This document shows positions 3,776 through 64,000 of a DNA stretch of 64,000 nucleotides, piece after piece (the stretch's first letter is position 1; each line of letters starts with the position of its first letter). The DNA is from Tetradesmus obliquus (taxonomy: Eukaryota > Chlorophyta > Chlorophyceae > Sphaeropleales > Scenedesmaceae). The stretch lies in NCBI GenBank assembly GCA_030272155.1, contig CP126207.1, forward strand, positions 868,001-932,000. Reading direction: 5' to 3'. The notes under the pieces are model-generated. The model had not been told where the DNA came from. It did not search any database and worked only from the letters and a program-made list of their open reading frames with translations. Made by a program: the position numbers and the translations under genes.

Positions 3776-4624
3776 TAGTATGAATACACAGCAAGCACAT
3801 ACAGCGACGGCAGTAGCAGCAGTAGCACTGCTCGTGCGGTCACAGCAGCAGCAGCAGCAGCAGTGAGGCTGCGTTGCAGTAGCTGCTGTGGCAGCAGGTG
3901 CAGCAGCATTTTGGGGTATGCACAGTGGCAGTCTGGCAGTCAAGCTTTCGGCATGAAAGGTCGACGCACTCCTTTTGATACTGCAGCATAGCTGCAGTGC
4001 TGCATTGGCCTCCAAGGCTTTGGGTGCCGCAGCTACAGCAGCAGGTGCTGGTGTAGCAACCAGCCGTAGCAGCAGCACCACAGGTGGCAGTCAAGATGGG
4101 CATGCAAATGACGCATGCGCTGCAGCTGCTGCTGCTGACATGTCGCATGCATTTGCAACTGTTGGGGGTGCGTGGCGACGTGATGGCTGCTTACAGCCGC
4201 TGCTGCTGTCCCACACACACTGCTGGTGTGCATGTGGCTGCCATGTCGCAAGCATTTCAAGGGCATGTTGTCTTTACTGTGCGACGCACCCTCTGCTGTG
4301 TGCTGCAAGTTTTGCCTTCTGGCAGGCGCTGGTTCATCGAGCCGCTTGTTAATGACAAGCTTGTGTTTGTACAGTAGTTGATGCATGTGTTTGTACAGTG
4401 GTTCAGCCCAGTGCAAAGCGGGCTCGCTGTGTGTGCAGCAGCCGTAGCATTTCAAGGCTTGTTGCTTCCACGTGCTGGGTCAGGGGCTGGTCGATGCATC
4501 TGGTTGGACAGTAGTTGAGGCCCGCAGCAAGCGGGCCCGCCTGTTTCTGTGTGTGCAGCAGCCGTGTCTGTGTGTGCAGCAGCCTTAGCACCGCATTTGT
4601 CGTTGATTACAGAAGGAGTCTGAT
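3776..4624. other. CAG/CTG-rich sequence, no gene recognised
   Basis: Short GCA/CTG runs (for example about 3840-3865) and many GCATGC-type words. The open frames here are short, overlap on several frames and carry no recognisable motif. A local duplication of TGTGTGTGCAGCAGCCGT is seen near 4430-4580. Confidence 0.4.
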
Positions 4625-59743: not shown

Positions 59744-61056
59744 GTTTGAGTGGCGACAGTGGACAGGGCGACACGCGTTCGTAGTCAAATGCTGCCATAC
59801 GCCGTTGCTGCTAGATTGAACATTGGACGTGTGTACTGCAGTCACAAAGTGCGTTGATCGAGATCATCGAACAGTATCAGTCGTAACATTGTTGGCGTGA
59901 TGATAGCGTAACCAACAACGTTGTTGCCTGGCACATGGATTCGCTCAGCAGTGCTTGTATGACCTCACGGTGGGCCACCCGACACCCATCAGCTGGAAAG
60001 GCCTCGGATCTAATTCAACTGAAACATTTTAAGAGATCTTAGTAACTCGCTGCAAGCCACACCGCGTGCGTTGAGGTTTGAAGGTTGCGCGCCCTTCAGC
60101 TTTATAAAGAAAGTTGCCGAATTGCATTCATTACAAGCATAAGCATGATGCAACATAATGCGTACTCACATGGCAAGAAGTGGTCCCCCGAAAGGCCACC
60201 ATGGCTGCTGAACCTCAGATTAGCATGTGCAGCTCCTGCTTCTGCTCCTATGTTGCCTAGTATTACCTGCAATTATAACAACACCTGGTCAGCGCCGTCC
60301 CGAAGAGCCACGATGCCCTTCGGCGGCAACGGCACTGACGGTCTTCGATCCTCTTGTAGTCCGTGGTAGCCTGGGTAGTGACACCTTGTCAGTGACTCCA
60401 CTTGGTTGACACCGCAGCTCAGATTGAAGTTGAAGTTTTCCTCGCAAGAAGCAGGAGTGGCAGTAGTGTAAATTGCATGTAATGGGGGAGTGTGTATGCC
60501 TGCTTTACCGGTTCGTACTACTGTCATTCAAAGTTGACTGTCCTAGTGACCATGTATGGCCTTGTGTAAATTTTGTCGTCCTTTATCAGACGACGGGCGC
60601 TCAGCGCTCCCCATCGTCACGTGCGAGTGATTGATGGATGTGTTATATGCATTGAGGATACCTCCTAGGTGCATGAGCACTTACTCCTCCCCTGACAGTA
60701 TAGGCATATGTTTAGTTCCCTGTTTATGAGCGCGGTCACATGATATAAAGAAAGTTGCCGATGACATCACATAAAGAAAGTTGCTGATTGCATTTAACTA
60801 CAGTATGTTTTGATAATTTGCTGTGACATGGTTGGTTTGGCTTTTGTAATAAAATGATTCTACGCATGGTAATAACACATTTTTCGCGCACCTTCCAGCC
60901 ATGTTTGTCCAGACGTCCTCAGCCTAAGGCTCCTTGCTGTGACATGTTTGGGAACCATATACAACTGCAACTTTGGCAAACATACAGAGTTGAACGTATT
61001 AACCTCAATATAACGTCAGTCACTGTTAAACACTCAATACAACCCCAACTGCCGAA
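59744..61056. other. No gene; dispersed repeats
   Basis: 60107-60205 repeats the leader found at 47322-47415 (GTTGCCGA, TTGCATTCATTACAAGCATA) up to ATGGCTGCT at 60201. AAAGAAAGTTGC words also occur at about 60744-60790. On the minus strand 60270-60440 reads open (NFNLSCGVNQVESLTRCHY) and looks like the tail of a retroelement, but I cannot prove it. Confidence 0.4.
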
Positions 61057-61400
61057 TCACAGTGATGCGGGCTCGGCTCTAAATTCCTCAGGAAACAGCA
61101 CCCAAAATTTCTGCATGATATCCTCATACAGGGATTTTGGATGCACCGCCCCAAACATGTCTGGGTGTAACCGCAGGAAACGCAGAAGCTTCCTTTGCAG
61201 CCCAGGTAGCGGGTAGCCATTGAGATGCATGCGTGCCATCAATAAACCACACTCCTGAACAAAATTACCTCTATCCTGTATCAATTCTCTGTACCTATGC
61301 AGCTGGCCCATCAAAATGCTGTTCAGCTGGGTATGGTACAAACGTAGCATCTGCATTTTGCAACAAATCAACACAGCTTGCAAGCAGACAGCCATGCTGG
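61057..61400 (-). mobile_element. Reverse-transcriptase C-terminal fragment, possibly Penelope-like
   Basis: On the minus strand a frame reads LNSILMGQLHRYRELIQDRG, then NFVQECGLLMARMHLNGYPL and a basic helix. The pattern G-Q-x2-R-Y-R ... F ... L ... G-Y-P is typical of the thumb region downstream of the RT core in Penelope-like elements. No catalytic RT core (YADD-type) was found upstream, so this is a fragment. Other LINE types are possible. Confidence 0.4.
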
Positions 61401-61473
61401 CATAGCAACCTGCTGTATGTGGCAGGCACAGTAAGGCACAGCTGCCAGTGCTGCTGCTTTGGTTTGCTTGCAT

Positions 61474-62175
61474 CCCAACTGCACAGCAGGGCCCCCACCT
61501 GCCAGCAGCAGCAGCTTCAAACTGCTAGTAATTTTGAGCTCCAGAATTCGCCTTGATCACACAAGAAGGATGTTTGCAGGAAACTGTGTAGAATACTAGT
61601 CCTCAACAAACTCTGTGCAGCCACACTAGCTGCACGCGCGCAGCAGCTGCCGGTGGGCCTGAAGCGGTGTTGCGCACTATGTAACAGATATGACAGTTGA
61701 AACTGTATGTGCAGCGCACAGCGCCAAGCAGCAGAGCGCAACAGCAGCGGCAGGGCACTTGGCACACCAGAACTGCAGTGCCTGATCAGCCAGCAAGGGA
61801 AGCCCAGAAGTATTACATTACACATCAAAACATGTTGCAGGCAGCAGCACCCACAGCAACACTCTACAGCGCAAGTTAACATATGTAACAGTCGAGTCGG
61901 GGCACTTCAGGGCAACGTGTTTTTAGCTCTTTTCTTGCAGTACACTGTGCCACTGCTAACAGCTCAAATTGATTTAGATTCGTCGTTGAAAGCTTGACAT
62001 TTATATGTAGGCCACTTGTTCGCTACGTTTGTACCATGCCCAGCTGAGACGGGTCAAACTCCATGATGCCGCAGGCTGTTGTTTGACCTGACCAGTTACT
62101 TCTGTTCACACTGCTGCTAGAAGCACAGCTAACATATCCATACGTTTTGGATTCATGCCTGCAGGGGGGCTGTCC
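61474..62175. other. No gene recognised; upstream of the transposase
   Basis: May contain the 5' end and inverted terminal repeat of the transposon below. I could not identify the terminal repeat because the other end lies outside the window. Confidence 0.35.
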
Positions 62176-64000
62176 ATGGTGCGCAAGCACCCTTCAGGAT
62201 GGAAGAGCAACCGCAGCACCACGGCCATGAGGGTGGCGGCGGTGGTGTGTGTGATAATGGCTTTGACCACAGCTGACGAAAAGTTTACGCCCGCATATTA
62301 TTACAGAGAGCAGTACCCTGACTACGCCAAGGAGGTACACGGGGACCTGAACCGGTTCTGCAAACTTCATCACAAGAACTTCACAGCAAACGGCACAGTG
62401 GCTACACCCAAGCATGGCGGCAGGCCCTCAAATGTCCCACATGCTGTCGCCTTCCATGCCAGCACAATATTCAAGGCTGGCAAGGTGGTAAAGGCCTACC
62501 CATCGGCAGATTCAAAGAGAAAGGTTGATGTGCACGTGTGGTGGACTTCAATCGAAGTCGCATGTCAGGAAAATGACACACTGCGCCAGCTGTGCACTGA
62601 CTACAACATCACACCCAAGAGACTGCTGAAGTACATGAAATGGGCTGACCCCGACCTGGTGCGCAGGAGAATAGATGTGAAGCTGGACTTGACAAAGATA
62701 CAGAAACAAAGGCGAAAGGCAGCAGCTGCGGCGCTGTGGCAGAAGTACCAAAGTGACCCCGACATGCTGCAGCGCATATATTTCATTGATGAGTGCAAAT
62801 TCTGGATGTCAGACCTGGCAGGCGGCTCCGTCAAGGTCTATTGTGATGCACACGATGAAAACGTGCATGCTGTGCTGCCATGCAAATGGATGCGCAAGGG
62901 CAAGGACGCAGAGCCGGTCAAGTTGCACTTTGTCTGCGCCGTCAACGCTGTGCACGGGCCCGTCTACTGCAAGTTTGTCACCGGCACAACAGACAACAAG
63001 GACCATGCTGGCAACCTCAATGTACCGTACATGGTGAGTGTGCGCTGCTACTGCGCAGGCGCCTGCCATCAAAAGACATGCCAGCCCTGCTGTACTGTGT
63101 AGTAACAGTCCCGCAGTGCTTTTTTTAGTGCTGTAGTGAAGCTGCAGCGCTGCCCGTCCTCTGCTGTGAACATAACAGCAGAGTAACTTGGTGACAGTAC
63201 AATGACACCACCTGCAGCAGCAAGCTGGAAACCAATGTGCAAGGATTGGTGCATGTCACATCCGCGCGTGCTCACGCGCAGCACACTGCCCCCTGGCTGC
63301 AGCCAGTTGTCATATGCTGCAGCGCAGAACTCAAAGTCGCGCTCCAGCACCTGCTGCCTGCTGCTGCTGTAATAACCCTTGTCATGACATGAGCCATCAG
63401 CTTGAATCAGCATGTTGTGCTGTGCATGGAGGAAATCAATCCGCCCATCCCACCAGTCCACTGCTACCTGAGCACACATACTGCTGCTGATGCCTAACCA
63501 ATACAGCATGCACACCAGCTGCTCCTCGCTTGTGTGCATGTAGCCCATGCATGTGCCAACCATATCAGCCAGCACACATGCACACATCTTGCACTGAAGC
63601 GCTGCTGCTGTGGCGACTGCACGCGGCGCGCAGAACTTGAAGTGCTGCACACCTGGCAAGCAGCCAGTCAAGCCCCAGAACAATCTCTGCCCCCTCATAG
63701 ACTTGGTGATGTATCTGACCTTGTCTGCACTGAGCCTGATGTAGAAGCGTCCCATCGCATCCATCCACACCGCTGCGTTGCGCTCCTGCGCTGCTAACAA
63801 GGCTGCGCGCTGCCAATCCGGCAATTCTTGCACCTGCAGTTGAAGGACAAACCAACCCAGCAGGCCAAGAGCATGACTCAGCTGGAGTTTGTTCACTGCA
63901 TGATGGAGATCAAAGACATAGCCAACCAACAGCAGGCGCAGCGCGGCACTACGCCGCTGTACATCTTTGACAACCCAAGTGTTCACCTGGGGAAGGATGG
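62176..64000 (+). CDS. Tc1/mariner-like DDE transposase (partial, runs off the window)
   Basis: Cut-and-paste transposase. Exon 1 (62176-63033) begins MVRKHPSGWKSNRSTTAMRV; a CCTGCAG just before suggests an earlier exon. An N-terminal DNA-binding part (GGRPSNVPHAVAFHASTIFK, ITPKRLLKYMKWADPDLVRR) precedes the first catalytic Asp in IYFIDECKFWMSD. After an 806-nt intron, exon 2 (63840 on) has the second catalytic motif LYIFDNPSVHLGKDG. The third acidic residue would lie beyond 64000. The junction GTACATG|GTGAGT to CACCTGCAG|TTGAAG is phase 0. The exon parts present are open with no visible damage. The intron is almost filled by an antisense reading frame. Confidence 0.8.
63069..63833 (-). CDS. 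Antisense PD-(D/E)XK nuclease-like exon inside the transposase intron
   Basis: A 254-codon minus-strand frame from a TGCAG acceptor at 63834 to a stop at 63069. N-terminal half: LPDWQRAALLAAQERNAAVW, MDAMGRFYIRLSADKV. C-terminal half: SEEQLVCMLYWLGISSSMCA, GRIDFLHAQHNMLIQADG then SCHDKG, LERDFEFCAAAYDNW, SVLRVSTRG. The order E ... DF ... (I)QxDGxxH ... RD ... LRV is that of Vsr/DUF559-type restriction-endonuclease-fold proteins, with Gln where Glu is usual, so activity is uncertain. The exon occupies all but 35 nt at one side and 6 nt at the other of the transposase intron. An upstream exon must lie beyond the window or overlap exon 2 of the transposase. Confidence 0.55.
   Translation of the reverse strand: MQELPDWQRAALLAAQERNAAVWMDAMGRFYIRLSADKVRYITKSMRGQRLFWGLTGCLPGVQHFKFCAPRAVATAAALQCKMCACVLADMVGTCMGYMHTSEEQLVCMLYWLGISSSMCAQVAVDWWDGRIDFLHAQHNMLIQADGSCHDKGYYSSSRQQVLERDFEFCAAAYDNWLQPGGSVLRVSTRGCDMHQSLHIGFQLAAAGGVIVLSPSYSAVMFTAEDGQRCSFTTALKKALRDCYYTVQQGWHVF

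Follow-up and report, generated by a model that had tools for sequence, protein, structure and literature searches.

A probable composite DNA transposon with an IS630/Tc1-mariner-like transposase and an intron-nested antisense reading frame in the green alga Tetradesmus obliquus

Introduction

The KolobokP transposons are the closest described counterpart of the element reported here. According to the passages of their description cited here, they are built as LTDR-INT-LTDR from repeats that carry inverted repeats of their own, are also found as solo repeats, and are flanked by target duplications of 3–5 bp (Kojima and Bao, 2022; PMC9587614). Multimers of the forms (LTDR-INT)n-LTDR and LTDR-(INT)n-LTDR are bounded by one target duplication, and the repeat can be excised from them (PMC9587614). 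KolobokP encodes a Kolobok DDE transposase and, on the complementary strand, a His-Me finger nuclease, and these passages present it as a unique eukaryotic lineage (PMC9587614). Classical Tc1/mariner transposons, in the cited parts of their literature, duplicate TA at the target (PMC7386202, PMC8533490), and Sleeping Beauty is described there as cutting 3 nt inside its ends, which produces 3-nt 3′ overhangs and leaves a CAG footprint (PMC8151067, PMC7827188).

The window analyzed in this study is a stretch of 64,000 nucleotides of the T. obliquus genome (C17:868001–932000). Of 32 RAP-domain matches, 25 exceed the cut-off, in keeping with a chlorophyte host, since chlorophytes have RAP-rich protein sets. 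A previous sequence-only reading had described, close to its right end, a Tc1/mariner-like transposase whose intron is almost filled by an antisense open frame. The object housing this intron is, on good support, a composite DNA transposon with arrays and excision footprints, in which an internal region (I) lies between two direct copies of a terminal module (M). The reading that we consider probable is that M-I-M is moved by its own IS630/Tc1-mariner-type transposase and that its arrays arise by unequal exchange, the accessory nuclease on the antisense strand being the less certain part.

Structure of the element and its transposase

The anatomy of the element was obtained by comparing 18 ten-kilobase stretches picked among the scored copies in the genome (104.66 Mb searched, 17 contigs), and positions past the window end are given on stretch L031. 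The left target-site duplication, GTT (61321–61323; right copy at L031:8329–8331), is followed by the first M of 723 bp (CAGCTGGG...CCCAGCTG; 61324–62046, plus strand), whose left and right inverted repeats of 25 bp (61324–61348, plus strand; 62022–62046, minus strand) match at 24 of 25 positions. The internal region (AGAC...GTCT, 3,559 bp overall, plus strand) starts at 62047, crosses the window end at 64000 and runs on to L031:7605, where an identical second M follows (L031:7606–8328), giving a total of 5,005 bp. The window stops mid-element, since the second M lies outside it together with the 3′ part. As M has inverted repeats of its own and two direct copies enclose I, each M would provide two transposase ends. 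Two frames tested inside M had no Pfam match.

The putative transposase gene consists of exon 1 (62176–63033, plus strand, with a presumed start codon), an intron of 806 nt with the ends GTGAGT...CTGCAG (63034–63839, plus strand), and exon 2 (63840–64000, plus strand), which continues past the window to a stop codon at L031:6356–6358. Exon 1 carries the first catalytic Asp codon at 62788 (FIDECKF) and ends with ...GNLNVPYM, while exon 2 starts with LKDKPTQQ... and carries the second Asp codon at 63969 (FDNPSVH) and the Glu codon at L031:6086. Splicing, as predicted from these boundaries, would yield a protein of 458 aa. The coordinates of the intron agree exactly with those of the sequence-only reading, and its assignment of the transposase also holds. 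The exon 2 frame matched Pfam DDE_3 (E 4.2e-5) and NCBIfam transpos_IS630 (E 1.9e-4), both below the curated cut-offs, the spliced protein matched DDE_3 (E 5e-5), and a DD38E triad, whose last two members are separated by 38 residues, was recognized by eye. The predicted enzyme is IS630/Tc1-mariner-like on these features. Exon 1 alone had no match in Pfam or NCBIfam, the transposase had no meaningful match among solved structures, and no relative of the exon 2 frame was found among viral contigs.

Among the five parts compared, the 3′ part of the core (1.2 kb, L031:6359–7605, past the window) varies most, with 61 variable sites per kb; the two minus-strand frames tried in it had no Pfam match. 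Around 0.5–1.2 kb to the left of the element, ATAAAGAAAGTTGC(C/T)GA occurs three times within 700 bp (60104–60135, 60745–60776, and 60771–60802). Scanning the window for Rfam families and tRNAs yielded nothing, and the five of its 11 long frames that were scanned had no Pfam match.

Copy number, arrays and excision footprints

A word from exon 2 and a word from the antisense frame each occur 163 times genome-wide. When the antisense protein was searched against the genome (best 128 of 281 candidates scored), the copies obtained were 99–100% identical and, among the matches listed, often regularly spaced at 4282/4280 or 3562 bp. The sites found with transposase exon 1 (best 126 of 473 candidates scored) are largely those of the antisense-frame copies. 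When neighbors less than 12 kb apart are joined into clusters, 112 of these 126 scored copies, among the matches listed, fall into 11 clusters and 14 are isolated. The clusters comprise 2–27 units among the matches listed, the largest being those on C5 (at least 27) and C12 (at least 24).

M is absent wherever the spacing of units is 3562. An exact pattern detected 29 such I-I junctions in the genome, in which the residue between GTCT and AGAC is CTG (17 junctions), CAG (11), or CAGTG (1). M has CAG and CTG as its tips, and the footprint of 2–4 tip nucleotides that is characteristic of the IS630-Tc1-mariner group is found as CAG or CTG at 28 of the 29 junctions. The junctions are spread over nine arrays and 14 combinations of array and footprint (15 if a neighboring variant is counted), and many of them are probably copies of one event. 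An exact pattern for I-I junctions joined left end to left end gave no match. On C12 (3.95–4.04 Mb), spacings of 4280 and 3562 bp alternate. This higher-order repeat pairs a unit that has M with a unit that lacks it, and it shows that blocks were duplicated after an excision.

At several places, a core or an M is inverted in place relative to its neighbors, at the same junctions (L037, L038, L044, C5:1704669, and C5:1712513). Each I is bordered by inverted ends, made up of the 25-bp repeats and AGAC. In bacterial insertion sequences, inversions have been attributed to recombination between terminal inverted repeats, according to the cited portion of the source (PMC3004938).

The arrays might also have grown without any nuclease, through ordinary unequal crossing over of direct repeats, an explanation that is compatible with a composite transposon, competes with the nuclease step only, and has in our judgment close to an even chance of being right. 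The units are indeed flanked by direct Ms, the blocks on C12 were duplicated post-excision, and in both arrays that were read at their two outer ends, one 3-bp duplication is common to the ends (TGT on C17, ATC on C5). Moreover, five scored units form a cluster at C16:0.89–0.92 Mb although they carry the Asn variant of the antisense frame described below. Against passive exchange stands our opinion that clusters of up to 27 units, among the matches listed, at many sites seem many for such a process.

The antisense frame and its putative nuclease motif

From stop to stop, the antisense frame covers 310 aa on the minus strand (63069–63998 in the window, extending over part of exon 2 to L031:6001). 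Its ATG-to-stop part of 231 codons (63069–63764, minus strand) lies entirely within the intron, and, as the first in-frame ATG is at 63764, this frame requires no antisense splice. The sequence-only reading had suggested that sense and antisense genes share CTGCAG as a splice acceptor. This idea was rejected, since the hexamer is palindromic, so that every such acceptor reads CTGCAG on the opposite strand, and since it occurs 194 times in the window; the coincidence carries no weight.

The statement that the open frame nearly fills the intron was borne out: the minus strand of the intron is free of stops over 256 codons, a length reached by none of 5,000 dinucleotide shuffles. The shuffles averaged 114 stop-free codons, with a maximum of 253, which also indicates that the composition of the intron is stop-poor. 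No internal stop was found in any of the 128 scored copies (best 128 of 281). At least one copy outside this set (C6:5868860) has a shortened frame of only 208 aa, so the frame is not intact throughout the family.

The frame contains a nuclease-like motif (63273–63440, minus strand) composed of IDF (63432–63440), IQADGSCH (63384–63407), ERD (63336–63344), and VLRV (63273–63284). A regular expression for this series, composed post hoc, had a single match in the window and none in 100 window shuffles. Conservation was assessed in 29 distinct rows, which were drawn from 53 extracted copies and are non-independent, some being one genomic copy at two lengths. QADG..H and ERD are invariant in all 29 rows, and all 29 have Gln at the position where ELDG would predict Glu. 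The putative catalytic Asp of IDF is replaced by Asn in seven of the 29 (13 of 55 readings, some of which represent one genomic copy twice). This Asn sublineage occurs at four places, C7:0.34 Mb, C7:1.74 Mb, C8:2.49 Mb, and C16:0.89–0.92 Mb, which suggests that the nuclease acts in trans, or is dispensable, or that the Asp is non-catalytic. The order D - (Q)xDGxxH - RD - VLR is shared with the PD-(D/E)XK nucleases of the DUF559, Vsr, and RAP kinds and, in our reading, fits a PD-(D/E)XK core. A nuclease is therefore plausible on the strength of the motif.

The earlier proposal of a Vsr/DUF559-like nuclease stood as far as the IDF / IQADGSCH / LRV pattern is concerned, whereas the profile searches returned a sub-threshold match. 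In the Pfam scan, the antisense protein matched DUF559 (PF04480) alone, at residues 187–220 only, with an E-value of 0.091 and 13.1 bits (cut-off 20.6), and neither RAP nor Vsr was among the models reported. No match was found in NCBIfam, in PADLOC, or, by phmmer, in the PDB. The one match in PHROGs was at chance level (E 0.32), and no relative was found among plasmids, phages, and viral contigs. In an hhalign comparison with an alignment of 69 DUF559 proteins, RIDFLHAQHNMLIQADGSCHDK paired with ILDFACCSARVVVELDGGQHDL of Escherichia coli YcjD (LDF...VELDGGQHD) at a score of 20.84, which, at a probability of 3, is far from significant; the control Vsr reached a score of 28.58 and a probability of 43.6. 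The score of the antisense protein nevertheless ranked first among the 39 window frames of at least 180 aa (next 19.23) and exceeded those of all 60 shuffles, though by a narrow margin (best 20.53), and that of the reversed protein (15.12).

Over the 29 rows, the antisense frame within the intron shows nine synonymous and 20 non-synonymous changes (two in the variable final stop codon), and the transposase exons show eight and 22 (one a premature stop in one row), both of which fit neutrality. A dN/dS ratio near 1 had been named in advance as evidence against a functional antisense frame, and it is indeed near neutral, but the transposase is equally so among these young copies and the ratio does not discriminate. 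The exons vary at 30 of 1,377 sites, the intron at 28 of 806, and the 3′ non-coding part at 76 of 1,246; the intron is less variable than the 3′ non-coding part (p 0.0097), and the comparison of exons with intron gave p 0.074. Among the six frames, the antisense frame ranked first by a codon model trained on the transposase and second by a model built from the long window frames. In a synonymous-only codon test it ranked third of six with a score of 0.074, a value that none of 5,000 random recodings reached.

Within the composite transposon as described, it is quite possible, though we lean the other way, that the antisense frame codes for nothing, being a shadow frame left open by the stop-poor, CAG-rich sequence of the intron. 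The neutral ratio of changes, the disagreement of the codon tests, the Asp-to-Asn replacement in a sublineage that has spread, the shortened copy, the weak profile match, and the long stop-free runs of the shuffles all speak for it. Such a frame accounts less readily for a stop-free length beyond that of every shuffle, for openness in all scored copies, for motifs in the PD-(D/E)XK-like order, and for a variability lower than that of the 3′ non-coding part, and the cited passages on KolobokP provide a precedent for an opposite-strand nuclease (PMC9587614).

Origin of the intron

The sequence-only reading had offered either an accessory gene nested head-on in a transposon or a nuclease-bearing segment that was inserted late and became a spliceable intron. 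The nested arrangement is backed by the anatomy and by the equal word counts of exon 2 and the antisense frame. A word for the spliced, intron-less junction had no match in the genome with up to three mismatches, in contrast to the 163 occurrences of each of the other two words, so no transposase copy without the intron is found in this genome. A late insert in one transposon lineage is unlikely in view of this, even though the antisense frame fills nearly the whole intron as an insert of that kind would.

Insertions and target duplications

Among at least 14 isolated copies, nine insertions were read: eight are M-I-M, and the ninth, L045, has two units and an internal deletion; five more isolated copies were left out. 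All nine have exact 3-bp target duplications of varied sequence, in place of the TA or TA-containing duplication typical of the IS630-Tc1-mariner group, and a 3-bp target site is unusual for an enzyme of this type. In the eight M-I-M insertions, a single 3-bp duplication surrounds the whole of M-I-M, which indicates that I moves with M. On C12, a solo M has GGG on either side. Within an M-I-M insertion, both Ms have the same sequence in seven of the eight cases and differ at one position in the eighth, whereas first Ms compared between loci differ at 0–17 positions. This is expected of units derived from homogenized arrays or from one-M circles, rather than of two independently aging end modules.

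CACTA-type elements have 3-bp target duplications. That M is an unrelated MITE family under another transposase, for example of the CACTA/EnSpm type, which flanks and punctuates a tandem gene family I by chance, would agree with these any-sequence duplications, which resemble CACTA-type rather than TA-type insertion, and with the two frames in M that lack Pfam matches, but it is quite improbable given the duplications around M-I-M as a unit, the paired identity of the Ms, and a CAG/CTG footprint of the Tc1/mariner kind.

Proposed mechanism and comparison with known systems

In the composite transposon that we favor, the transposase encoded by I would recognize CAGCTGGG ends, a pairing that we infer, would, like Tc1/mariner enzymes, cut 3 nt inside them, and would thereby mobilize M or M-I-M. 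Tandem arrays, (M-I)n-M, would grow within one insertion through unequal exchange between Ms, and these arrays would homogenize the Ms and yield new M-I-M units with two identical Ms. With less certainty, the antisense frame may be an accessory PD-(D/E)XK (DUF559/Vsr-like) nuclease that cuts element or target DNA, possibly in trans, and so promotes exchange or insertion, as has been proposed for KolobokP in the cited passages.

As far as the cited description of KolobokP extends (PMC9587614), M-I-M shares with it the direct terminal repeats with inverted repeats of their own around a core, the multimers of both forms with one shared target duplication, the excision of repeats inside multimers, the solo repeats, and a DDE transposase on one strand with a nuclease, here putative, on the other. 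The two are told apart by profile matches. Unlike the Kolobok superfamily, the transposase of M-I-M matches DDE_3 and IS630 only, and in place of a His-Me finger the antisense protein has, among Pfam models, the sub-threshold match to DUF559 only. The KolobokP nuclease lies downstream of the transposase, whereas the PD-(D/E)XK-like frame lies inside the transposase intron. The repeats of KolobokP measure approximately 450 or 660 bp against 723 bp for M; its excision loses a few flanking bases, whereas that of M leaves the CAG/CTG footprint; and its hosts belong to seven animal phyla, whereas M-I-M occurs in a green alga. IS26-type pseudo-compound transposons and translocatable units, as treated in the same passages, also have direct end modules and a repeating unit of module plus core, but the transposase lies in the IS26 module, while here it lies in the core (PMC9587614).

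With Tc1/mariner elements such as Sleeping Beauty, M-I-M has in common the DDE_3-type catalytic domain, SPDFNKPIE, DD38E, the CAG tips, and the 3-nt footprint; it differs in its any-sequence 3-bp duplications, its composite ends, and the intron with the antisense frame. Zator, a sister group, has 3-bp duplications. From the DUF559 proteins, the antisense protein departs in scoring below the Pfam cut-off, in the Gln in place of Glu, and in the loss of the Asp in one sublineage. No Tc1/mariner-type element of the M-I-M build was recognized among the matches listed in openly licensed literature on composite and tandem-array transposons, in the portions of those texts covered here.

In our reading of the sequence, M-I-M is convergent with KolobokP as a composite transposon. 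The fuller claim, that the KolobokP lifestyle arose independently for a second time, with an IS630/Tc1-mariner-type composite in a green alga, an intron-nested antisense PD-(D/E)XK nuclease, and nuclease-induced arrays as a unit factory, is tentative and rather doubtful in its entirety. If it is true, eukaryotic DNA transposons would have converged on a strategy of paired end modules with an opposite-strand nuclease. The existence of a second composite lineage with another transposase and another nuclease type, on another eukaryotic branch, would mean that the plan evolves repeatedly and so is probably functional. Should the antisense frame be real, the transposase would be coupled head-on to its accessory nuclease, with transcription of either one running through the other, and the transposase pre-mRNA would contain the antisense of the nuclease message. 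The footprints, inversions, and arrays of M-I-M offer material for reading the mechanism.

Five other DDE_3 matches are present in the genome. DDE_3-type transposases other than that of M-I-M that exceed the Pfam cut-off are located at C17:1097277–1097549, C17:1106553–1106825, C6:5907559, and C6:1613270, and two of them, which are 9,276 bp apart and have equal scores, possibly belong to another tandem family.
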